Origin: Nitrospirales bacterium
GTDB taxonomy: Bacteria; Nitrospirota; Nitrospiria; Nitrospirales; UBA8639
Reading direction: 5' to 3'
DNA length: 42,224 nucleotides
Assembly: GCA_021604105.1 (NCBI GenBank)
Contig: BQIW01000037.1
Coordinates: 1-42,224 of the forward strand
The first letter of the stretch is position 1. The number at the start of each line of letters is the position of its first letter. Both the position numbers and the translations under genes were made by a program. Below, one piece after another: positions 1,777 to 25,176 of the stretch. The notes below the pieces were generated by a model that saw only the letters and a list, made by a program, of their open reading frames with translations, was not told the origin of the DNA and made no database searches.

Positions 1777-2187
1777 ATGAGACTGTCTGCCGCCACACAG
1801 AAGAAAGCCCGCATCGAGATCATTCCGATGATCGACACGATGTTCTTTCTCTTGGTGTTCTTTATGATCGCCACACTCTCCATGACCATTCAGCATGGGA
1901 TGCCAGTCAACTTACCAACTGCCGACTCGGCCACGGATAAAGTTCCCGATCAAATTTCTCTCACGCTGACCCATGAAGGGACGCTCTACTACAACAAAGA
2001 ACTGATTGAATTACCGGAACTGGAAGTCCGGCTGACAACCCTCGGGCAAACCGATTCGGACCCCTCAGTCGTCATTAACGCCGATGAACAGGTTCCCCAT
2101 GGCCAGGTCATTAAGGTGATGGACATCATTCGATTGGCCGGAATTCCCAACATGGCAATTGCGACAAAACCTAATTCGGAACCATAA
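1777..2187 (+). CDS. exbD: ExbD/TolR-type biopolymer transport protein
   Basis: A 136-residue inner-membrane protein of the ExbD family, the proton-motive-force-coupled partner of ExbB that energises TonB and outer-membrane receptors. The N-terminal basic segment is followed by RIEIIPMIDTMFFLLVFFM, the family signature; the Asp of MID is the proton-carrying residue in the single transmembrane helix. The rest is the periplasmic domain. Length is normal for ExbD. No clear Shine-Dalgarno precedes the ATG. No exbB or tonB is visible beside it, so its partners must lie elsewhere or upstream of the window. It is followed after 13 bases by a small His/Cys exported protein, suggesting one transcript. 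Confidence 0.92.
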   Translation: MRLSAATQKKARIEIIPMIDTMFFLLVFFMIATLSMTIQHGMPVNLPTADSATDKVPDQISLTLTHEGTLYYNKELIELPELEVRLTTLGQTDSDPSVVINADEQVPHGQVIKVMDIIRLAGIPNMAIATKPNSEP

Positions 2188-2200
2188 GCGCCCGGACCCC

Positions 2201-2563
2201 ATGAAGCACCCCTCATTGGCCACATTCACCAATCTATACTCTCGATTGGCATCCGGCCTGATCGTGCTGTTGATTGGATTACATGTGGTGCTGTTGGGCG
2301 CGGGGGCATTCTGTGCTCCAAGTTCCCTGGACCCCAATCCTACGCATCATTCCCATCCGGCCGAATCCCTTTCCCTTCTTTGCTCATGGGCCTGTCATGT
2401 CGCCCAAATTGCCTCAGGCGCCGGTTCGATTACACAATGGGCGGCTCCGTTTCTTCCCCTCCTGCTCTGGTCTCTGAAACCCACATTTACCTTTTCCCAA
2501 TCCTCTCCAGTCCACATCTTCTCTCCTCGCGGCCCACCCGTTCGTTTTCTGGTTCATGGATAG
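2201..2563 (+). CDS. Small exported His/Cys protein with CSWACH motif (copy 1)
   Basis: A 120-residue protein of no family I can name with certainty. It has an N-terminal hydrophobic segment (about residues 14-37), a His cluster THHSH, then CSWACH, a second hydrophobic stretch, and an RGPP sequence near the end. Two other proteins here (3101-3430 and 22338-22676) share the same order: hydrophobic leader, His cluster, C-[ST]-W-[AT]-C-[HQ], hydrophobic stretch, R-[GA]-P-P tail. The layout loosely resembles DUF2946 proteins, which also carry His/Cys clusters and a C-terminal APP or GPP, but I cannot confirm membership. His and Cys spacing suggests metal or heme handling in the membrane or periplasm (inference). 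The start at 2201 lies 13 bases after exbD; an upstream in-frame ATG would overlap exbD. Confidence 0.7.
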   Translation: MKHPSLATFTNLYSRLASGLIVLLIGLHVVLLGAGAFCAPSSLDPNPTHHSHPAESLSLLCSWACHVAQIASGAGSITQWAAPFLPLLLWSLKPTFTFSQSSPVHIFSPRGPPVRFLVHG

Positions 2564-2803
2564 ATTGGGACCCAACCAGTCCATCCCAGAACACACATTT
2601 CAAGAGCAGCGTGTCATCGTGAGCAGCATGGTTGATGATTGAACCATCTCCATCTTCCATTGATTTGATGGAAAACGCTCCAGAAGAAATCACGCTCAAG
2701 CCCAATTGTAACCATTTCGTTCCGGACGCCTCTGGCAAGAACCGGAGACAAACACATGACGTTAATCATTTGACACAGCATACATGCTGCGGAAGGAGAC
2801 CCC

Positions 2804-3010
2804 ATGGACAAACAACTCTTGCGTGTCGGTGAAGCTGCTCAAACCTTAAATGTCAGCCGATGGACCATCTACCGGTGGGTTGAAGAGGATCGCCTCAAGG
2901 CGACAAAAATTGGAAAGGGCAGCTTACGCATTTTTCGGGATTCCATCGATACATTGATTCAACAAAATCGAAAAGACCATTGGGAATTCGCCATTACGGA
3001 ATGTCAATGA
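2804..3010 (+). CDS. Excisionase-type helix-turn-helix DNA-binding protein
   Basis: A 68-residue protein made almost entirely of one HTH_17/excisionase (MerR-like winged helix) domain: LRVGEAAQTLNVSRWTIYRW is the helix-turn-helix and the following KIGKGSLRIFRDSIDTLI forms the wing and last helix. A good ribosome site (GGAAGGAG) precedes the ATG. Proteins of this type act as excisionases on mobile elements or as small stand-alone regulators. No integrase or attachment site is visible nearby, so a local regulator is the more natural reading. It lies 14 bases upstream of the first copy of the 32-nt motif and could be a candidate binder of it, but nothing in the sequence proves this. Confidence 0.85.
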   Translation: MDKQLLRVGEAAQTLNVSRWTIYRWVEEDRLKATKIGKGSLRIFRDSIDTLIQQNRKDHWEFAITECQ

Positions 3011-3023
3011 ACCTGGAGGAAAA

Positions 3024-3055
3024 TGTTGCATTGATGAGTAGCCGTCCGTAGACAC
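3024..3055 (+). promoter_or_regulatory. 32-nt conserved motif, copy 1 (promoter or operator candidate)
   Basis: Matches the family consensus TGTTGCAT, two free bases, AT, one free base, AGTAACCATC, then YGTAGAC, with two differences. It lies 45 bases upstream of the second His/Cys protein. A TTGC block and a YGTAGAC block about 16 bases apart resemble -35/-10 spacing of an ECF-type promoter, but the spacer is conserved too, so a bound operator is equally possible. Confidence 0.5.
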
Positions 3056-3100
3056 CCTACACATGAAGAGCTAGCCTGACGGAAGAGATTATCGATATTT

Positions 3101-3430
3101 ATGCTGACACAACCAACGATGAGGAAGGCCACTCCCAGACAATCATTTGCCGTTCTCATGCTCAGCATGTGCTTCCTGCTCATGACTGGGGGCCTTGCCT
3201 ATACGGCTCCGGTCCACATCCATCACGGTCATCATGATCAGCACACCCATGGGAACAGTTGGTGTAGCTGGACATGTCAAGCCGGGCAAGGGCTTCAGGC
3301 CCTGTCAGCTGACATCCCCCGGTCCTTTTCTCTGTTGGGCCTTCTTCCGCTCTTCAAGCCGACTGCACCGGATCTCATCCGCCATCACCATAGCCCTTCT
3401 CGTGCTCCTCCCCGTTTTCTCTCCGTCTAG
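3101..3430 (+). CDS. Small exported His-rich protein with CSWTCQ motif (copy 2)
   Basis: A 109-residue protein with a hydrophobic leader (about residues 15-35), a dense His block (HIHHGHHDQHTH), then CSWTCQ, a second hydrophobic stretch (SFSLLGLLPLF), a short HHH run and a C-terminal SRAPP tail. It has the same architecture as the proteins at 2201-2563 and 22338-22676 with little identity outside the motif. It carries the strongest His cluster of the three, which fits copper, nickel or zinc binding or a metallochaperone role (inference). GGAAGAG lies about 14 bases before the ATG at 3101; a second ATG at 3119 lacks any ribosome site. Copy 1 of the 32-nt motif is directly upstream. Confidence 0.7.
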   Translation: MLTQPTMRKATPRQSFAVLMLSMCFLLMTGGLAYTAPVHIHHGHHDQHTHGNSWCSWTCQAGQGLQALSADIPRSFSLLGLLPLFKPTAPDLIRHHHSPSRAPPRFLSV

Positions 3431-3586
3431 ATTTGTCGTCTGATCCATAACAGTTCCTCTTTGGTGAAAGAGGAATTTAGAGGTTCTCTCATAGTCTCAA
3501 TCCAGTTGCGTGCCTTGAACAGACGCAGACACACGCGCATTTCTTCTCCGCATTCTTTAGTGAATAGGCAATGGAGGTACTGTCAC

Positions 3587-4333
3587 ATGTGGTATGATTC
3601 CTTGAAAACTTCCCGACCATCCTTCCGTTTCATGCTGTTGAACGTCCTTCTCATGATCCATCCAGGACACGGGTTCGCGCAGGATCAGGATATACTTCCT
3701 CTTCGACTTGATTCACGCCCCTTCAGCCCGGCGCTCTGTCAAAGCCACGGCCATGACAAATCCATCAGGATTCAGGTGGCAAAATATCGGGATCTCGTCA
3801 TTCGCCGAGTTCCCGGACAATTTGTACCGTCTGAATCGGGGCAAGCCAGAATCAAACAGTATGTCCATTTCATCAGATTGCAGGATTTAACCGACGGAAA
3901 CGTCACACAAGGCGCGATTGCCTTTGATCGGAATTATGCTGTGATCTTTACGGCAGACCACCCCGAAGGTGTAGCACGGAGCAAATTTATGGACTCACTC
4001 CCTGAACCCCAACACCGAATGGGAAACGCTGCCCTGAATACGTTTTTGCACCTTCGTCAGGTCTTTTACGCGGCCATCGATTCCTGCCGTTCGTATCCAC
4101 CCTTTGTCGTGTACGGTACGGACGAGGAAATTGACCGGATTGAAGCTGCCAGACGGACATTCGCCAAACGGGTCCATCAATTCAACAGTGATCCCTCCGC
4201 AACGTCTGCATTCACGTGGCACGAAACCGGGATGGCCGGTGGATTTGTCGATCCCGATGCGGGAATGGGCACAAACGTCAGCTACCAGGCGATGAATCCA
4301 CTCAATTTTTATATGCCTTCGCAATATCCCTAA
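3587..4333 (+). CDS. Exported protein of unknown function
   Basis: The start at 3587 is chosen because GGAGG sits nine bases upstream and because the protein then opens with a secretion signal (basic MWYDSLKTSRPSFRF, hydrophobic LLNVLLMIHPG, cleavage after GFA). The mature part of about 215 residues is soluble, with SHGHDKSIRIQ near its N-terminus and two widely spaced Cys. I do not recognise a domain. It lies between the second His/Cys protein and the cytochrome P460, in the same direction, with about 150 bases on the left, so it may be cotranscribed with the former. An upstream ATG at 3461 would add a non-signal-like leader of 42 residues and is not preferred. Confidence 0.75.
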   Translation: MWYDSLKTSRPSFRFMLLNVLLMIHPGHGFAQDQDILPLRLDSRPFSPALCQSHGHDKSIRIQVAKYRDLVIRRVPGQFVPSESGQARIKQYVHFIRLQDLTDGNVTQGAIAFDRNYAVIFTADHPEGVARSKFMDSLPEPQHRMGNAALNTFLHLRQVFYAAIDSCRSYPPFVVYGTDEEIDRIEAARRTFAKRVHQFNSDPSATSAFTWHETGMAGGFVDPDAGMGTNVSYQAMNPLNFYMPSQYP

Positions 4334-5737: not shown

Positions 5738-6379
5738 ATGCACGTTCGTAACACCATTGCACTGATGAACCGGTTGTTTTTCGCCTGTCTGGCGACAGTG
5801 GCCACCATGATCCCCGCACTGGCATGGGACACGGCCCCTCGACCCATTTCCCTCCCAAGTCAAGAAGGCCTTCCGTTCAAGCCGATCTCGATGGACATTT
5901 ATATCGATTTTTACTGTCCGCATTGCCATGACTTCGTCACCACCATTCTTCCCCCGCTGAAAGAACAATTCGGACGTGCTTTAAACATCCAATATATCGG
6001 ACTTCCGGTGGTTGAAAATGCCTCCACCCTAGCCTTTGAAATCTACGAAGCCGCACGTCTTGAGGGTAAAGGAGAGGAAATGGCGCACCTGCTCTTTGAA
6101 ACCCTGCAAATCAAGGGCCGGTCGATTCAATCGATCAAGATGAGAGAATCGTTGTATCACACATTAGGACTCGACAGTGATCGAATGCATGAGCATCTCA
6201 AGTCCGGGCGAGCCAAAGATCGGGTGGAACAACAGCTAAGGCATGCCTTGAAAATCGGGTTGGATATGACACCGGTTGTGGTGCTTGACAGGAAATATCT
6301 GGTCATCGACACCTCGGCCGACAACCTCCGCCTGATTCTTGACGAACTTGTATCTCAAAAAACAAAACACACCCTCTAA
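5738..6379 (+). CDS. DsbA-like periplasmic thiol:disulfide oxidoreductase
   Basis: A 213-residue exported thioredoxin-fold protein. The signal peptide ends near residue 29 (IPALA). The active site is Cys60-Pro-His-Cys63, the same CPHC found in E. coli DsbA, preceded by MDIYIDFYC; a helical insertion follows, and Thr-Pro179 in DMTPVVVLD is the cis-proline that contacts substrates. It would introduce disulfides into exported proteins, which fits the many Cys-containing exported proteins and c-type cytochromes here. The VKOR-thioredoxin fusion 233 bases downstream is its natural reoxidising partner. The start at 5738 has no strong ribosome site; a leader ORF ends just upstream. Confidence 0.88.
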   Translation: MHVRNTIALMNRLFFACLATVATMIPALAWDTAPRPISLPSQEGLPFKPISMDIYIDFYCPHCHDFVTTILPPLKEQFGRALNIQYIGLPVVENASTLAFEIYEAARLEGKGEEMAHLLFETLQIKGRSIQSIKMRESLYHTLGLDSDRMHEHLKSGRAKDRVEQQLRHALKIGLDMTPVVVLDRKYLVIDTSADNLRLILDELVSQKTKHTL

Positions 6380-6555
6380 CGATTTATTCACATTCTCCAG
6401 GGACAGAGCCACGGCTCAACACCTCAATATCCCTCAATGATGCCAAAACCCCTTCCTTAATCAAGGCATTGAACTTCATAGGACATCTGAAGGTTTGACC
6501 GGATGTTCACCTATCCATCATGAGGGATGCCACCCTACCATGGCTTGTTATGGAT

Positions 6556-6578
6556 CTCCCCTACGGTGGGGAGTTTTT
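6556..6578 (+). terminator. Intrinsic terminator after the DsbA-like gene
   Basis: CTCCCC, a 6-nt loop, GGGGAG, then five T. It lies between the DsbA-like gene and the VKOR gene, only 34 bases before the VKOR start, so the two may be separate or attenuated transcripts. Confidence 0.65.
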
Positions 6579-6612
6579 GATACATTATTAATATTTCAAT
6601 GACCAGAACCTC

Positions 6613-7518
6613 ATGATACACTCGTTCACGATGGCAAAATCCAAACATCAAAAACAAACGATCGTTCCTGAAACAGCAAGAAAGACATCAAAAGCTCCGT
6701 CTTCCATGTTCTCAGGGGCGAACGCCCTGCTCAACCTTCTCATCATCATCCTGGCCGGTGCAGGACTGATGTTAACCGCTTACCTGACCTATACGGCCTC
6801 GTTCGAGGTTCACCCGGCATTTTGCAGCGAGGGTTCCGGCTGTGACATTGTACAGAGCAGTCGATGGGCCACCTTTCTGGGAATCCCCATGGCTTTGTGG
6901 GGTTTCGTGACCTATGTGGTGATTGCGGGGTTGGCGTGGTCCGGTCGTGGCAAATCCGGTAGTGGAACGGTGTTGATTTACGTGGCTATGACCGGATTCG
7001 CGGTCAGCGCCTACCTGACCACGGTCTCGGTCGTGGAGATCGAAGCCACCTGTCCATATTGCCTGACTTCATTTGCCATCATCGCGACAATCCTTGGTCT
7101 GGCTCTCGCTCGACGGCCTCCCGACTGGACGAAATCCCTGAAAGAGGCAGTCGTGATCGGCCTTCTCATCGTCGGCGGGCTTCATTTGCATTATAGCGGG
7201 GTGTTTGACGCCGCCGCCGGCCCGGAAGACCCCAAACTTCAAGCCTTAGCCATCCACCTCAATGAAACCGGTGCCAAGTTTTACGGTGCCTATTGGTGCC
7301 CCCGCTGCCAGGAACAAAAAGTCGAATTTCTTTCGTCCGCCAAACGGCTTCCTTATGTGGAATGTAGTTCTGGAGGACGAGGAAGCGCTCTCACCGCTCC
7401 CTGCGTCAAGGCTGACATTGAAAGCTACCCCACGTGGATCATCGGGGAACGCCGGTTAACCGGCCTCAAAACCCCGCAGGAATTGGCACGGGCCTCCGGA
7501 TTCGATTGGCAGGAGTGA
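6613..7518 (+). CDS. Vitamin K epoxide reductase (VKOR) fused to a thioredoxin-like domain
   Basis: A 301-residue integral membrane protein. After a basic cytoplasmic leader come four to five transmembrane helices of the VKOR domain (about residues 37-200), with the loop cysteines Cys71 and Cys77 and the quinone-reactive Cys147-Pro-Tyr-Cys150. The C-terminal periplasmic thioredoxin-like domain carries YWCPRCQEQK (Cys229, Cys232) and a TYPTW-like SYPTWII segment with the cis-proline. Bacterial VKOR-Trx fusions oxidise DsbA-type proteins and pass the electrons to quinone, replacing DsbB. Here it follows the DsbA-like gene, a typical pairing. The ATG at 6613 has a weak ribosome site; Met7 is an alternative start. 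Confidence 0.92.
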   Translation: MIHSFTMAKSKHQKQTIVPETARKTSKAPSSMFSGANALLNLLIIILAGAGLMLTAYLTYTASFEVHPAFCSEGSGCDIVQSSRWATFLGIPMALWGFVTYVVIAGLAWSGRGKSGSGTVLIYVAMTGFAVSAYLTTVSVVEIEATCPYCLTSFAIIATILGLALARRPPDWTKSLKEAVVIGLLIVGGLHLHYSGVFDAAAGPEDPKLQALAIHLNETGAKFYGAYWCPRCQEQKVEFLSSAKRLPYVECSSGGRGSALTAPCVKADIESYPTWIIGERRLTGLKTPQELARASGFDWQE

Positions 7519-9529: not shown

Positions 9530-10960
9530 TTAATCTCCCAATGGTAAATTGCTAGGAACCGACTTTGGGACATCATTGCGCAAATCCAGGCTGCCTGTAT
9601 CGGTAAGAGCCTGTAGGAAAGCGAGCAGGTCGTCTACCTGTTTTTTTCTGAGAGGTTTTGCCTGCAACTCATTTGCGGCCGCAATGTTTGATAGGCGGCC
9701 GGGATCGTTCTGCACACCAAAATCAATGTCGTCAAGATCCGGTCGTCCCGGAAGGACAGCTTGGCTGTGGTCATAATTGAGGAGGGATTTTTCTGGGTTC
9801 AGGTGATGCTTTACCACCGCTCTAAGGGTGTTAAAGGCTCCGTCATGGCCCCATGGCCCGGTCAACGCCACATTTCGAAGGGAAGGCGTTCGAAACCGAT
9901 ACCGATCATTGACGTCGCCTGTCACCCTTTCACGCCCAAAATCCTCATGGCCATCGAATCCATCGCCTTTCCCTGGTCCAATCTGTGGCATACCAATGGC
10001 GTGAAAGCCCTGGTCAGTTTGGAAGACGCCAGAATGGCAAATATGACAACCCTTGTCTTTCCTATAAAAGAGAACCATCCCACGTTTTTGGGCTGGTGTG
10101 AGCACTCGATTCTTCCCGCGTAAATATTGATCAAAAGGGCTGTTATCGGCTCGCCAGGCTTTGGCCTCAAAAGCGGCAATGGCATTGGCTGCATGCACAA
10201 ACGTAATGTCTGCAGCTAACGTGATGTCGGGAAACGCACTCTGGAAATGATTGACATAGTCAGGAATGGCCCTCAGGCGTTCGGCCAACTGATCCCACAC
10301 GCCCCCCGGGCCAGCCAACCGGTTGATTGCGCCGGCATCGGCAATCGGATTCTCGCCTGGTTGCCCTGCCATTTCGGTATTGGAAGTGACGGGAAACATC
10401 GCTTGAGCAGCCAGGACGTTGTCTAATCCCAAGGGTAACGTATTGCCCGCAGGACTACGAAATCCCGAGGGTTGGGAGGAATCGACCTGCACGCGGCCAT
10501 CCGCAAACATCGTGTCAAACTCTCTGGCTCCGAGGTTGAACAGAGGGGGGGCATTCCGAGGAACCCGTTCAGTCACGGCGTCAGCGCCAACTCCCGTATC
10601 CCGAGTCACACCTAACCCCCGACCACCTTCTCCAATAGAAAGGGAGAGTCCGTCTCCGGTATCGGTCAGGGCATGGTGGCAAGTCGCGCAAGAAATATTC
10701 CGATTGCCACTGAGAATTTTGTCAAAAAATAATAGTTTTCCCAGCTCCACTTTCGCTGGAAGGGGAGCTCCATTATTAAAAAAATCCGAATCTATAGCCG
10801 GCTTTGGCCATCTCTCAGCGTAAGATAGATTCCCGGTAAGAGATGGGATAAGAAATATTCCTGTAAGGAAATACAATCTTGTGATAAGGCGAATGCAAGA
10901 TGTCTGGTGAGGCCGCCTCATGTGCAAAGCAAGTGATTTCATGAAATGCTCAAACATCAT
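9530..10960 (-). CDS. Diheme cytochrome c peroxidase/MauG-family protein
   Basis: A 476-residue exported protein with two c-type heme sites, CATCH (Cys91, Cys94, His95) and CHICH (Cys305, Cys308, His309). The first follows LGKLLFFDKILSGNRNISC, the usual lead-in of bacterial CcpA/MauG enzymes; RFRTPSLRNVALTGPWGHDGAFNTL in the C-terminal half is their second hallmark. CcpA members reduce hydrogen peroxide in the periplasm; MauG members modify proteins. It is longer than the standard 320-350 residues because of a long leader (signal sequence about residues 28-48) and an insert of about 80 residues between the hemes. The first of two adjacent ATGs is used; GAGGAG lies upstream. It stands alone on its strand. 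Confidence 0.9.
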   Translation of the reverse strand: MMFEHFMKSLALHMRRPHQTSCIRLITRLYFLTGIFLIPSLTGNLSYAERWPKPAIDSDFFNNGAPLPAKVELGKLLFFDKILSGNRNISCATCHHALTDTGDGLSLSIGEGGRGLGVTRDTGVGADAVTERVPRNAPPLFNLGAREFDTMFADGRVQVDSSQPSGFRSPAGNTLPLGLDNVLAAQAMFPVTSNTEMAGQPGENPIADAGAINRLAGPGGVWDQLAERLRAIPDYVNHFQSAFPDITLAADITFVHAANAIAAFEAKAWRADNSPFDQYLRGKNRVLTPAQKRGMVLFYRKDKGCHICHSGVFQTDQGFHAIGMPQIGPGKGDGFDGHEDFGRERVTGDVNDRYRFRTPSLRNVALTGPWGHDGAFNTLRAVVKHHLNPEKSLLNYDHSQAVLPGRPDLDDIDFGVQNDPGRLSNIAAANELQAKPLRKKQVDDLLAFLQALTDTGSLDLRNDVPKSVPSNLPLGD

Positions 10961-20529: not shown

Positions 20530-21813
20530 ATGATAAGACCTGTACTTTTTGGAGCCACTTCCCTCGTCCTCTCGATGGGGCTGGGAGGTGAACTATACGG
20601 AGTCCTCGGAGCGGAACCATCTGTTTCAATGGTTCAGACCGGAGCTAAACACATCATCGACCATCAAGGCATGCAGACCACCGGCCCAGCCACCCAACTA
20701 GATAAAGACGGGACCCTTCACCTTGCCTGGGGCGGAGAAAAGCAGGAAGATCGAGGAGTCTTTTATCTCAAGGTTCCAGCGCAACAGGAACATTACCCAA
20801 CACCCATCAGAGTCAATCCATCCAGTCCTCCCTCCACTTCCCTCCACGAACCACCGGCCTTGGCATTAGGCCACAAAAACGATGTGTACATCACCTGGAC
20901 AACACCTCACCCCAAGGCCGGCGAAAAATTATTTACTAACCTTCTTCTCCTGAGCCGGTCACTTGATGGGGGGAAAACCTTTCTTCCTCCTGTTCGAGTC
21001 AATGACGACGACGCCGTCACCGGCCATTCGTTTGACCACTTAACCGTCAGTCCAAATGGTTCCGTGCATATCTCCTGGCTTGATGCACGGGAAGGGAAAA
21101 AAGATCCGGCCACCTATACCGTTTTTTCTGAAGATCAGGGCAAAACCCTCTCCCCAAACCTGAAAATTGACGAATCCAGTTGTGTCTGCTGCCGGACCCA
21201 TATGACCACTGCCTCCGATGGCACCGTCTATCTGGCATGGCGCAAGGTCTTGTCCGGGGCGGTCCGGGAAACGGTCGTATCTCGTTCAACCGATAACGGG
21301 AAATCGTTTTCTCCGCCGGTCATCGTGGGCAATGATCAATGGGTCTACGAGGGCTGTCCCCATCGCCCCGCGACCATGGGGGTCGACCGGCATGGACGCC
21401 TCTATGTCACTTGGTATACGGAAGGCCCGGATGATACTCCGGGTGTGTATCTGGCTTATTCTGATGATCGGGGAAAAACCTTCACGCCTCGACGTATGTT
21501 GAACATGTCCAAGGGGACGTTTCCCGACCATCCTCAACTGGCGGTGAATCAAGAAGGCCATCTACTCGTATCCTGGGAAGAGCAATCTCCGGTGCGGCGG
21601 GAAGTCGTGTTCACTTATTCCCTCGACCGGGGACAGACATTCAGTCCCCCGAAAAAGTTAAATGAGAAAAAAGCCAAAAGTCCGGCCGTGGCATTAAATG
21701 ACCAGGGACAAGCCGTCATTGCCTGGTCCGAGCAAGTGGCTTTCCCGGGATGGAGTACGGTAGTCCATCGTCTCTCTTTTCCCACCTCACGGACGGCTCA
21801 ATTACGCCCATAA
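20530..21813 (+). CDS. Exported BNR-repeat (sialidase-fold) protein with CxCC motif
   Basis: A 427-residue exported beta-propeller. After a signal peptide (to about residue 28) five Asp-box repeats of the S-x-D-x-G-x-T-F type are visible: SLDGGKTF (about 144-151), SEDQGKTL, STDNGKSF, SDDRGKTF and SLDRGQTF. The conserved arginine triad and catalytic context of true sialidases are not evident, so a binding or scaffold role is more likely than glycosidase. Unusual are CVCCRTH (Cys218, 220, 221) and GCPHRP (Cys276), which could bind a metal or form disulfides. It is followed two bases later by a TlpA-like thioredoxin, then a His/Cys protein and a TonB receptor, suggesting an operon for an outer-membrane uptake system. 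AGGAGG precedes the ATG. Confidence 0.85.
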   Translation: MIRPVLFGATSLVLSMGLGGELYGVLGAEPSVSMVQTGAKHIIDHQGMQTTGPATQLDKDGTLHLAWGGEKQEDRGVFYLKVPAQQEHYPTPIRVNPSSPPSTSLHEPPALALGHKNDVYITWTTPHPKAGEKLFTNLLLLSRSLDGGKTFLPPVRVNDDDAVTGHSFDHLTVSPNGSVHISWLDAREGKKDPATYTVFSEDQGKTLSPNLKIDESSCVCCRTHMTTASDGTVYLAWRKVLSGAVRETVVSRSTDNGKSFSPPVIVGNDQWVYEGCPHRPATMGVDRHGRLYVTWYTEGPDDTPGVYLAYSDDRGKTFTPRRMLNMSKGTFPDHPQLAVNQEGHLLVSWEEQSPVRREVVFTYSLDRGQTFSPPKKLNEKKAKSPAVALNDQGQAVIAWSEQVAFPGWSTVVHRLSFPTSRTAQLRP

Positions 21814-21815
21814 CC

Positions 21816-22337
21816 ATGACACCGCTTTCTCTGCTCGCTTCAGGAGTCCTGGGAATGGCCCTGGCTTTGGGAAATCCCATTTCTACTCCATTCATGCTTA
21901 CCCGAATCGATACCGCTCAAACCCTTCCTCCATTCCAGCTCCGCACCCTGCAGGGCACATCTATTCATTCGAATGAACTGGAAGGACGAGTCCTCATCCT
22001 GAATTTTTGGGCCACCTGGTGTGGCCCTTGTAAAGAAGAAATGCCCTCGCTAGAACGTCTTCGTCAAAAATTCCCTCCAGACCAATTAGCCATACTGGCG
22101 GTTACCACCGATATTCGTCCACGAGACATCAAAGTATTTTGGCAGCAACTCGAGTTGCATTTCGATGTCCTCCTGGATGAACAGGAAGAACTCTCTCAGG
22201 CGCTCATGGTCAGAAATCTTCCCACAACGGTGATTGTGGATACTCACGGACATCTGAGCAAACGAATCATGGGGCCCAGAGAATGGGATAGCCCTGAATC
22301 CGTCGCGTACATCCACACCCTCCTCAACCCGAAGTAA
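21816..22337 (+). CDS. TlpA/ResA-like membrane-linked thioredoxin
   Basis: The start at 21816, two bases after the preceding stop, gives a 173-residue protein with an N-terminal signal or anchor helix (residues 3-20). PPFQLRTLQGTSIHSNELEGRVLILNFWATWCGPCKEEMPSLERL is the AhpC/TSA-TlpA fold with active site Cys69-Gly-Pro-Cys72; RNLPTTVIVDTHG carries the cis-proline. TlpA-type proteins keep periplasmic cysteines reduced, for example in heme or copper insertion. The neighbours on both sides have clustered Cys (CVCC upstream, CTWACH downstream) and are plausible clients. A longer reading from 21750 would overlap the upstream gene and is rejected. Confidence 0.9.
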   Translation: MTPLSLLASGVLGMALALGNPISTPFMLTRIDTAQTLPPFQLRTLQGTSIHSNELEGRVLILNFWATWCGPCKEEMPSLERLRQKFPPDQLAILAVTTDIRPRDIKVFWQQLELHFDVLLDEQEELSQALMVRNLPTTVIVDTHGHLSKRIMGPREWDSPESVAYIHTLLNPK

Positions 22338-22676
22338 ATGCACCAGCGGCTTCAACCGATAGCCCTCCTGACATCAAGCCTGTTTCTCGCCATGCTCCTG
22401 GCATCCTCGGCGTGCATGGCCGTGCAGGACCTCTCTCTCGATTCTCCGGAATCGCATCACAGCAATACGAAACTTCTCCATGGGGTTCTTTGCACCTGGG
22501 CCTGTCACATCGGAAAACTATCGACAACGTCTCTCATCACCTCTCCATCGTGGTATTCGCCATTCCAGGAATTGGGCGCCATATCTTTTTTCCATTCCCA
22601 GCCTGGCTTGCTCCCTTCCCTTCCGAACAAATCTGCCAGGGCACCTCCACACGTCCTCTTGCTGTTTTCTTTTTAA
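22338..22676 (+). CDS. Small exported His/Cys protein with CTWACH motif (copy 3)
   Basis: A 112-residue protein whose ATG touches the TlpA stop codon, so the two are almost certainly cotranscribed. It has a hydrophobic leader (residues 8-29), SHHSN, then LCTWACH, a weaker second hydrophobic stretch and a SARAPP tail. The order of elements is that of the proteins at 2201-2563 and 3101-3430. It sits between a TlpA thioredoxin and a TonB receptor, which suggests that the Cys pair is redox-controlled and that the protein works with the receptor, perhaps in metal delivery (inference). Confidence 0.72.
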   Translation: MHQRLQPIALLTSSLFLAMLLASSACMAVQDLSLDSPESHHSNTKLLHGVLCTWACHIGKLSTTSLITSPSWYSPFQELGAISFFHSQPGLLPSLPNKSARAPPHVLLLFSF

Positions 22677-22860
22677 ATGTTTCTCAAGGCTCCGTTGTGA
22701 GTTGCGGGGGATTTACGCCTCCTTCCCCATACTCATGAATCCTAACCTGGGCCTCACCTGAACATTCCTTCAGTGAGCCTGATTCTTCGTTGCTGGCCAC
22801 ATGCATAGCCGGTTGGCTCATGCGTGTTCTATTCATCTTTTTTTGTAAGGAGATTATCTC

Positions 22861-25176
22861 GTGAAACAGTTTCTTTCTGTCTGTTCGTGGAATTGGTCAT
22901 GGCCAATCTTCGTCTTACTCTTGACCGCCCAAACCATTTTCAGCGTTTCCTCTCCAGCCCTTGCTGCATCACGCGACCCCTCTGCGATGACCCAAGAATC
23001 CCTTCTTCAGCAACAACAGGAATTGGAGGGGGAACTGGATCACATCAACAGCAGGTTAGAAGAAATCAGAAAACAACTTAGGGAATTAGATCACATACCT
23101 GCTTCCCAACAAACCGAGGAACAACGGCAGAAACAGGCGATACTCCAGGAGGAGGAAGTGGTGACACTCGAAGAAATGAGTATTGTCAGCACCCGGATTT
23201 TGAAACGTCCGGAAGGTCTGACACTCTCCTCCACCCCTCAATCGGAAACCGAATCCCAACCCACCCGAACGATGAAAGAATCCATGGAATCTCTTCCCGG
23301 CGTGGTACTCCGCCAGGCTAATGGACCCAGGGACTTCAGTATTTCCATTCGAGGATCCGGAATCAAAACGGCCTTTGCCATCCGGGATATCAAAGTCTAT
23401 GAAGATGGCTTTCAGCAAACGCAGTCGGATGGATTGTCACGCCTCGATATCCAGGACCCGTGGTTTATGAGATCGACCGAAGTGATCCGTGGAGCGGCCT
23501 CCTCACTGTATGACAATTATGCCCTGGGCGGAATGGTGCATTTTAAAACCCGACGGGGCAGTGACATCAATGGAGTCGAGGGGTTTTTTGCCGGAGGATC
23601 ATACGGATATAACAAACAGGCGGGCGCGTTCGGGCAACACTGGAAGAATCTTGATGTATCGTTATTTGCCAGTAACGCCGCTGAAAACGGGTATATCGAT
23701 CACAGTGGATATAATACCCAGACGTTGAATTTGAATTTCCGCTTCACCATTGACGAAAAACAGAGCCTGTACGTCAAAGCCATCACCAACTGGCTGGATA
23801 CGAAGGTGCCGACCCGGCTTACCAAGAGCCAATTTAATGCAAACGATCGTCAGGCCGGAACCGGAACGAAATCAAGGGATCAATCGCGTCTCGACCGCCG
23901 CACCATTATCGGATTAATGTATGAACGGCAGTTGACACCCAACCTCATCCTGACGACAGAAGGGGATTATGACGTCAAAGATATAAACCAGTATTTCAAT
24001 CAAATCTTCGATAATGTGAATACCAATTGGAAACACTATACCGATTTGCGCCACACCGGCCACATCTCTGACATGCCGCTGAACAGCTACCTCGGGTTCT
24101 TTATCAACAATATGGAACAGGAGGGGCAAACCTTTCAAAATTTGAATGACGGCCAAGGCACGCGCGGCACGTTGATCCAGAATAACCGGGGAACCATTCG
24201 AAATATCGGAGGACGATTCCGAGAAGAACTTACCTTCCTACCGAACTGGACCGTCGCCGCCGGTCTGGGTTTTGAACAGTCCATCGTGAGCATCCAGACG
24301 ATTAATTATACCAATGGGGAGGTCTCCAGCCGACCCAGCACCACCAAGACCTACTACAATTGGGCTCCTGAAATGTCCCTGACGTGGAGACCCAAAGCAG
24401 GCTATCGGCATTGGATCAGGGGTTCCACTGGATATGGCATCCCGCAATTCAGCAATTTGACTCGCAATCCGCTTACGGGTCTTCCCGGCTCCAATTTTGA
24501 CTTGGATCCCCAAAAAAATGTGAACGTGGAATTCGGTCATGAAGCCCAGCTTCATAATACCTTCAATATGCAACTTGTGGGATTCTGGATTTTCTTTCGC
24601 GATGAAATTATTTCGCAAAACATTTCAGGTACAAACACGGCCTCCGTCAATGCCGACTCTTCGGAGTATCGGGGTGTCGAGGTCTCCGCGGATTGGAGAC
24701 CGATACCCGGTTGGCAATTTCACGCTGCGTACACCCACATTGATGCCAAGTACATCAACTTCACAGACCGGTATCTAGTGAATGGCGTGGCCACCGAGGT
24801 CAAACAGGACGGCAATGACGTCCCCAACGTTCCTTCGGATGTCCTTAACATGAAGGCCATGTATGATGATGCGAAAAATGATTGGGGAGTCTGGCTTGAG
24901 TCTAATTATTACAATAGCTATTTCCTGAACAATGGCAATACCGTGGGAATTCCTTCCTACTGGATTCTAAACGTCAATTTTCACAAGACCTTTACCTTCA
25001 ACAATGATTGGTTTCGCTTTGCCAAGTTCTTTTTCGAAGTGAACAACATTGCGGACAAGACCTACGCAGCGTCAGGTCAGGTCGTGTCCGACGCGACACC
25101 CGACGCCAACAAACAACTGTTCTTTGCCGGGTATGGCCGCTCTTTTTACGGAGGTGTGACAATCGGAGTGTTCTAG
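22861..25176 (+). CDS. TonB-dependent outer-membrane receptor with N-terminal coiled coil
   Basis: A complete receptor of 771 residues starting at GTG 22861, with AAGGAG at good spacing. The signal peptide ends at SPALA (residue 35). Residues 48-98 form a Gln/Glu-rich heptad region (ELEGELDHINSRLEEIRKQL) that looks like a coiled coil; normal receptors go directly to the TonB box. VTLEEMSIVST (101-111) may be the TonB box. The plug follows (SLPGVVLRQANG, ISIRGSG, RGAASSLYDNYALGGMVHF) and then a 22-strand barrel ending in GVTIGVF. The fold resembles FecA/PupB siderophore receptors, but the ligand is unknown. It is the last gene of the BNR-TlpA-CTWACH cluster, 184 bases after the latter. Confidence 0.93.
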   Translation: MKQFLSVCSWNWSWPIFVLLLTAQTIFSVSSPALAASRDPSAMTQESLLQQQQELEGELDHINSRLEEIRKQLRELDHIPASQQTEEQRQKQAILQEEEVVTLEEMSIVSTRILKRPEGLTLSSTPQSETESQPTRTMKESMESLPGVVLRQANGPRDFSISIRGSGIKTAFAIRDIKVYEDGFQQTQSDGLSRLDIQDPWFMRSTEVIRGAASSLYDNYALGGMVHFKTRRGSDINGVEGFFAGGSYGYNKQAGAFGQHWKNLDVSLFASNAAENGYIDHSGYNTQTLNLNFRFTIDEKQSLYVKAITNWLDTKVPTRLTKSQFNANDRQAGTGTKSRDQSRLDRRTIIGLMYERQLTPNLILTTEGDYDVKDINQYFNQIFDNVNTNWKHYTDLRHTGHISDMPLNSYLGFFINNMEQEGQTFQNLNDGQGTRGTLIQNNRGTIRNIGGRFREELTFLPNWTVAAGLGFEQSIVSIQTINYTNGEVSSRPSTTKTYYNWAPEMSLTWRPKAGYRHWIRGSTGYGIPQFSNLTRNPLTGLPGSNFDLDPQKNVNVEFGHEAQLHNTFNMQLVGFWIFFRDEIISQNISGTNTASVNADSSEYRGVEVSADWRPIPGWQFHAAYTHIDAKYINFTDRYLVNGVATEVKQDGNDVPNVPSDVLNMKAMYDDAKNDWGVWLESNYYNSYFLNNGNTVGIPSYWILNVNFHKTFTFNNDWFRFAKFFFEVNNIADKTYAASGQVVSDATPDANKQLFFAGYGRSFYGGVTIGVF

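Follow-up and report, generated by a model that had tools for sequence, protein, structure and literature searches.

To our knowledge, the systems in which a nascent peptide is understood to sense a metal and regulate a gene are few and come from Proteobacteria. The tetrapeptide R[AG]PP is a ribosome-arrest motif that blocks peptide bond formation (PMC10951233), and proteomes avoid it, save close to the C-termini of small proteins, many of them exported, that are encoded 5' of other genes (PMC12992588). Upstream ORFs (uORFs) with RAPP or RGPP precede TonB- and copper-related genes and also thioredoxin genes (PMC12992588). The DUF2946 protein CruR of B. pertussis (BP2923), in which a CXXC motif is followed by 45 residues, RAPP and the gene of a TonB receptor, is responsible for copper control of that receptor (PMC9426467), and its arrest was demonstrated in vitro (PMC12992588). 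CutF of R. capsulatus contains a CxxxC motif and, about 45 residues on, a Pro-rich end, and CutF-like peptides were also reported before nickel/cobalt genes (PMC9973294). Both CruR and CutF act in cis as nascent peptides (PMC9426467, PMC9973294). A general survey of RAPP peptides took in Nitrospirota genomes. Our literature search found no paper joining Nitrospira with DUF2946, so the copies described here appear to be undescribed.

The window studied here is the whole stretch of 42,224 nucleotides that was analysed from a Nitrospirales bacterium, and it makes up a complete contig. It contains three short ORFs (Table 1) that had been picked out in a preliminary description made from the letters alone. 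All three are open reading frames whose translations are as described there, each with a hydrophobic leader, a His cluster and one of the motif pairs CSWAC...RGPP, CSWTC...RAPP and CTWAC...RAPP. In an alignment of the three copies, the invariant columns include HH, C-W-C and R-x-P-P, and the gap from the second Cys to the Arg is 44, 41 and 44 residues in copies 1, 2 and 3, respectively. The association with TonB-system or thiol-redox genes held for the TonB and thioredoxin link, and copy 1 directly follows exbD, but copy 1 heads a small HTH gene and not a transporter gene. The true start of the secreted-protein gene behind copy 2 is probably the ATG near 3587, and a cytochrome P460 gene (4530-5081) comes after it. 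In the congener G019, the receptor corresponding to the truncated one is headed by a CxWxC/RGPP ORF (L049:13646-13990), and the receptor at the contig start probably once had its own leader peptide. Next to the cluster, genes at 5738-7518 encode a DsbA-like thioredoxin and a membrane protein that looks VKOR-like from its sequence and ends in a CPRC-type domain; close to leader peptides that contain Cys, the two may work as a pair in oxidative folding. A di-haem cytochrome c peroxidase/MauG-type gene lies on the minus strand at 9530-10960.

Table 1. Leader-peptide ORFs of the window, their motifs and neighbouring genes.
Feature	Position	Strand	Remarks
TonB-dependent receptor truncated by contig start	20..1597	+	
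ExbD, upstream neighbour of copy 1	1777..2187	+	
Copy 1, putative leader-peptide ORF, 120 aa	2201..2563	+	hydrophobic leader, HHSH, CSWACH, RGPP, 7 aa tail
CxWxC codons of copy 1	2381..2395	+	pattern search, sequence
RGPP codons of copy 1, putative arrest site	2528..2539	+	dN 0, dS 0.38
68-aa HTH_17 protein gene, 3' of copy 1	2804..3010	+	Shine-Dalgarno GGAAGGAG; kept in congeners
Copy 2, putative leader-peptide ORF, 109 aa	3101..3430	+	HIHHGHHDQHTH, CSWTCQ, RAPP, 5 aa tail
CxWxC codons of copy 2	3263..3277	+	pattern search, sequence
RAPP codons of copy 2, putative arrest site	3401..3412	+	dN 0, dS 0.85
Secreted protein without Pfam/NCBIfam family, 3' of copy 2	3461..4333	+	recurs behind copy-2-type uORF, 10 loci
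TlpA-like thioredoxin, directly 5' of copy 3	21750..22337	+	
Copy 3, putative leader-peptide ORF, 112 aa	22338..22676	+	HH, CTWACH, RAPP, 8 aa tail
CxWxC codons of copy 3	22491..22505	+	pattern search, sequence
RAPP codons of copy 3, putative arrest site	22638..22649	+	dN 0, dS 0.93
184-nt gap, copy 3 to receptor	22677..22860	+	conserved T-tract; Shine-Dalgarno TTTTTTGTAAGGAG at end (alignment)
TonB-dependent receptor, Plug and barrel, PqqU/YncD-like, 3' of copy 3	22861..25176	+	

We consider it likely that the product of each of these ORFs is a nascent peptide that regulates in cis as CruR and CutF do; it would switch the downstream gene by metal-dependent ribosome stalling, with copper as the most probable metal. 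The family is by no means confined to the three copies. That number is correct for the window, but the genome has at least five: the spaced DNA pattern matches seven places in it, of which five are real family members (the reversed pattern matches none), and the two additional copies found by pattern and profile lie 5' of a TonB gene and 5' of an outer-membrane barrel gene. A further, sixth match appeared in the profile search with E up to 0.1. The spaced pattern is present in 53 of 60 relatives. A profile built from 42 diverse members, which are 12-28% identical to the first member, matched 146 of 147 Nitrospirales genomes and all 124 high-quality ones, with 1-12 copies each; homologues thus exist well beyond this genome, and the Cys pair is conserved in them. 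In a phylum-wide sample, clear matches were restricted to the same class, with three genomes outside it at E values of 0.006-0.009. Nearly all relatives retrieved through one copy type bore the label Nitrospira, Nitrospirales or Nitrospirota, with N. moscoviensis and N. defluvii among them.

Every small ORF (60-260 aa) in about 100 loci was enumerated. CxWxC occurs in 241 of them, R[AG]PP followed by 0-15 residues ends 236, and 228 possess both. Since most loci were chosen through the Cys end of the motif, the independent test is only the coupling of the two ends; what carries information is that an ORF with CxWxC hardly ever lacks R[AG]PP at its other end. PP[AG]R and A[AG]PP, used as control tetrapeptides, end an ORF in just 10 and 8 cases, and in the long ORFs of the same loci (208,898 residues) RAPP and RGPP together occur just twice. 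The gap from Cys to Arg in the 228 ORFs is 41 (n = 153), 42 (n = 57) or 44 residues (n = 16), with 38 and 43 once each, and R[AG]PP lies 1-11 residues before the stop codon in every counted member. Among the 215 distinct members, 99.5% have a hydrophobic leader, assigned by hydrophobicity only, and 100% have at least two His within the 25 residues preceding the first Cys. A few members were observed to depart from CxWxC; they carry CAFAC, CFSAC, CTLLC or CTLFC, and none has CXXC. A second type of RAPP-ending small ORF was observed in Nitrospira (L186:1441-1833; also in L187, L188, L192, L195, L198, L199, L200, L206 and L208); it contains DICQWVQHH, a later single Cys and the end SRAPPQV, lacks CxWxC, and matches DUF2946 weakly at about 21 bits.

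Selection acts on the encoded residues, as the preliminary description had supposed for the motif. In all five orthologue groups of the genus examined, the R-x-P-P codons have a dN of 0 with a dS of 0.38-1.08. Constraint in these groups is strong on the His/Cys box (dN/dS 0.04-0.23), a plausible metal-binding site, as had also been suggested; it is weaker on the linker (0.20-0.62) and for the most part absent from the tail that follows PP (0.17-2.07, and 0.8 or above in four of the five groups). Overall dN/dS is 0.40 for copy 1 (orthologues in 4 congeners), 0.21 for copy 2 (8 orthologues) and 0.26 for copy 3 (6 orthologues); as pairwise values average over related sequences, all these ratios are descriptive. 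The fixed R-x-P-P and the free tail together indicate that the peptide is translated and that its function stops at the second Pro. It is conceivable that the conserved element is an RNA leader in which the peptide is incidental, and a Shine-Dalgarno sequence and a T-tract are indeed conserved before the receptor gene; but synonymous change with zero amino-acid change at R-x-P-P in five groups, and no significant structure between ORF and next gene, make this highly improbable.

The preliminary description favoured a membrane metallochaperone or a metal carrier switched by redox state. On this reading the mature exported protein would work in trans, together with the TonB system. The conserved His/CxWxC box, the export leader and the neighbouring genes of TonB-dependent receptors, ExbD, and TlpA-like and DsbA-like proteins would all suit such a carrier. 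However, an arrest peptide would be expected to have no function beyond the second Pro, as is seen here, and a carrier would not. The near-terminal position of R[AG]PP, a known arrest motif, in all counted members, the mostly unconstrained tail, the linker of 41-44 residues, in which paralogues agree in length more than in sequence, and the location of the ORF before its target gene all argue against a carrier, and CutF, the described relative, is rapidly degraded after export (PMC9973294). We regard the carrier as unlikely and prefer the arrest leader peptide.

The genes behind the ORFs fall into recurrent classes: 185 of the 228 ORFs lie within about 420 nt 5' of eight gene families. The place expected of a DUF2946/CruR ORF is the first in an operon with a TonB receptor or copper genes; the commonest downstream family here is a Phenol_MetA_deg-type outer-membrane barrel (75 ORFs), together with TonB-dependent receptors (30), TlpA-like thioredoxins (22) and TonB genes (26, in two families of 16 and 10). 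The other families are a 524-aa protein without known family (16 ORFs), the secreted protein found behind copy 2 (10), and an HTH-type group (6). The spacing tracks the downstream class, being 42 or 44 in 30 of 30 ORFs before TonB-dependent receptors, 41 in 74 of 75 before barrels, and 41 in 21 of 22 before TlpA-like genes. The modules often occur in tandem, for example six within 13 kb in locus L051. The barrel family itself is uncharacterised and has a CGAVTCFVVIGSQQQVPQAG-like start (L051:3687-4904 and relatives), and the protein of about 524 aa, located behind CxWHC-type leader peptides in Nitrospira, is a putative lipoprotein (L051:5359-6918 and relatives). One scanned TlpA-like member passes the SCO1/SenC cut-off. 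Identification of the copy-3 receptor as a known copper receptor was rejected; its nearest models and solved structures are PqqU/YncD. This receptor gives a separate link to the described systems: three plasmid homologues of it were examined, in Acetobacter, Gluconobacter and Bradyrhizobium, and all are preceded by a small ORF with a near-terminal RGPP. The Bradyrhizobium ORF is a clear DUF2946 member (42.4 bits) in an operon with a gene for a 'copper uptake system-associated protein', and on the Acetobacter plasmid PepSY comes after the receptor gene, and the adjoining gene, on the opposite strand, is an SCO gene.

These neighbourhoods bear on what the peptides would respond to. The same arrest leader could sense zinc or another metal, or thiol oxidation through a disulfide across CxWxC. 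The TlpA-like genes directly behind 22 members and the TlpA/DsbA-type neighbours point in this direction, as do the RAPP/RGPP peptides reported before thioredoxin genes (PMC12992588) and the CutF-like peptides before nickel/cobalt genes (PMC9973294). On the other hand, the closest characterised relatives are copper-responsive, the Cys and His box and the SCO-like and TonB neighbours fit copper, and related receptors occur in copper-associated operons of Proteobacteria; a signal other than copper is possible, but we hold it to be the less probable choice. The combination of RAPP and an export leader is also common to monitors of Sec/YidC (PMC10987492), and the peptides could accordingly be secretion monitors like SecM or ApdP that report how much capacity Sec or envelope biogenesis has, and their Cys/His box would do no more than tune export. 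Genes of the sec/yidC type are absent among the downstream genes, and such a function leaves the strict Cys/His conservation unexplained; it is very unlikely.

The arrest leader peptide that we favour can be compared directly with the described systems. The Nitrospirales peptides share with CruR the export leader, the Cys pair ahead of RAPP, the position of RAPP near the stop codon, and the long gap before a TonB-dependent receptor gene. They differ in the three residues between the Cys (CxWxC instead of CXXC), in the occurrence of several modules per locus and in the several types of downstream gene, and the distance to RAPP, equally rigid in both, is 41, 42 or 44 from the second Cys versus 45 ± 1-2 in DUF2946/CruR. 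With CutF they have in common the CxxxC spacing, the Sec leader (here by hydrophobicity only), the Pro-rich end about 45 residues further on, and the location 5' of the controlled gene; unlike CutF, they show no multicopper oxidase downstream and no strong hairpin over the next Shine-Dalgarno sequence, and they have a near-invariant Trp and a His cluster ahead of the Cys box. Like ApdA, ApdP, ApcA and the uORFs of S. lividans, they are small exported or membrane proteins encoded 5' of a gene and carrying a C-terminal R[AG]PP or a close variant (PMC10951233, PMC12992588), but those of the ApdA/ApdP/ApcA type whose function is known serve as monitors of Sec/YidC or of other pathways, whereas the Nitrospirales family couples a strict Cys/His box to the motif.

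DUF2946 had been named as the nearest resemblance, and this was borne out by weak matches of its profile PF11162 to 15 of 42 family members, which often reach the last profile position, where RAPP lies. The best copy in the window scored 12.6 bits, and none of 118 Nitrospirales genomes passed the gathering cut-off of 23.7 bits (best, 22.8 bits). Pfam and NCBIfam searches with the window proteins and the 42 members gave no convincing family, and pMOL30, sought as a source of DUF2946 controls, yielded sub-threshold matches only. Judged by the curated score on these sequences, the family is not DUF2946, while a distant common origin is plausible because of the weak matches. The view that this signature belongs to no described family thus holds only in part: the members fall below the PF11162 cut-off, but R[AG]PP is a published arrest motif, and the relatives CruR and CutF are described cis-acting nascent peptides. 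By analogy, the family most likely works like CruR and CutF without being filed as a member. New relative to the known systems are the CxWxC sensor, the gene-matched spacing and the arrangement of sensor and gene as modules in tandem, and also that the scores do not reach the cut-offs of the databases.

In the mechanism that we propose, the hydrophobic leader would target the nascent peptide to the membrane, and the ribosome would stall once R-[A/G]-P-P sits in the peptidyl-transferase centre. At this point 41-44 residues would have been made since the second Cys, and the His/CxWxC box would be just out of the tunnel, at the exit port or the Sec channel. With the box at this distance from the catalytic centre and just clear of the tunnel, a metal or an oxidant could reach it and alter the stall; most probably copper would bind the emerged box. 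The ORF typically lies about 50-230 nt 5' of the gene for a TonB receptor, TonB, a TlpA-like thioredoxin or an outer-membrane barrel, and because of this placement stalled or released ribosomes could set the expression of that gene. The read-out might be Rho-dependent termination, by analogy with CruR, or access to the next ribosome-binding site, as in CutF, and the likely logic for the receptor copies would be ON at metal scarcity. The analysis establishes the motifs, the spacing, the selection on the encoded residues and the position 5' of recurrent gene families, whereas stalling, metal binding, the identity of the metal, and the sign and route of regulation are what we infer. Copper, if it is the signal, would either prolong or relieve the stall, a point on which CruR, in whose model copper relieves the stall and Rho termination follows, differs from CutF.

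Some observations count against the arrest switch. The receptor behind copy 3 is nearest to PqqU/YncD rather than to any known copper receptor; the gene behind copy 1 is of the HTH type, a less obvious fit to a metal-import switch; and strong or conserved hairpins are lacking, while C-richness of the Rho type is only slight. Between ORF and next gene, folding z-scores were -1.45, +1.32 and -1.58, with no strong or conserved hairpin, the first value belonging to the gap 3' of copy 3, which has no clear structure. A stem that might sequester the Shine-Dalgarno sequence at copy 3 was considered and set aside, as the GAG...CTC pairing of 3-4 bp is too short to claim. The median C/G ratio of the ORFs is 1.29 versus 1.18 required by their amino acids, a slight excess for Rho sites, and the 150 nt 3' of the ORF are not C-rich in the same composition test; C-richness was rejected as a Rho-site signal, since amino-acid composition explains most of it. 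Consensus promoters and terminators near the ORFs showed no excess over shuffles. The structure and composition tests favour neither Rho termination nor access to the next start site as the read-out.

The Nitrospirales are an order of environmentally central nitrifiers, and nearly every genome of the order carries multi-copy arrays of these ORFs that current protein families miss. The rigid spacing between Cys and arrest motif (41, 42 or 44, by downstream gene) predicts where the sensor would be positioned when the ribosome stops. The family offers a concrete candidate for how Nitrospira adjusts its metal uptake, and it gives a likely role to proteins without a named family. More tentatively, Nitrospira and its relatives may control envelope metal supply by an array of sensor peptides that are tuned individually, as many as twelve in a genome and several in tandem per locus, each with its own His/Cys box and gene-matched tunnel spacing. 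The genes of one locus could then answer to distinct metal levels or distinct signals (metal or thiol redox), and no transcription factors dedicated to this would be needed.
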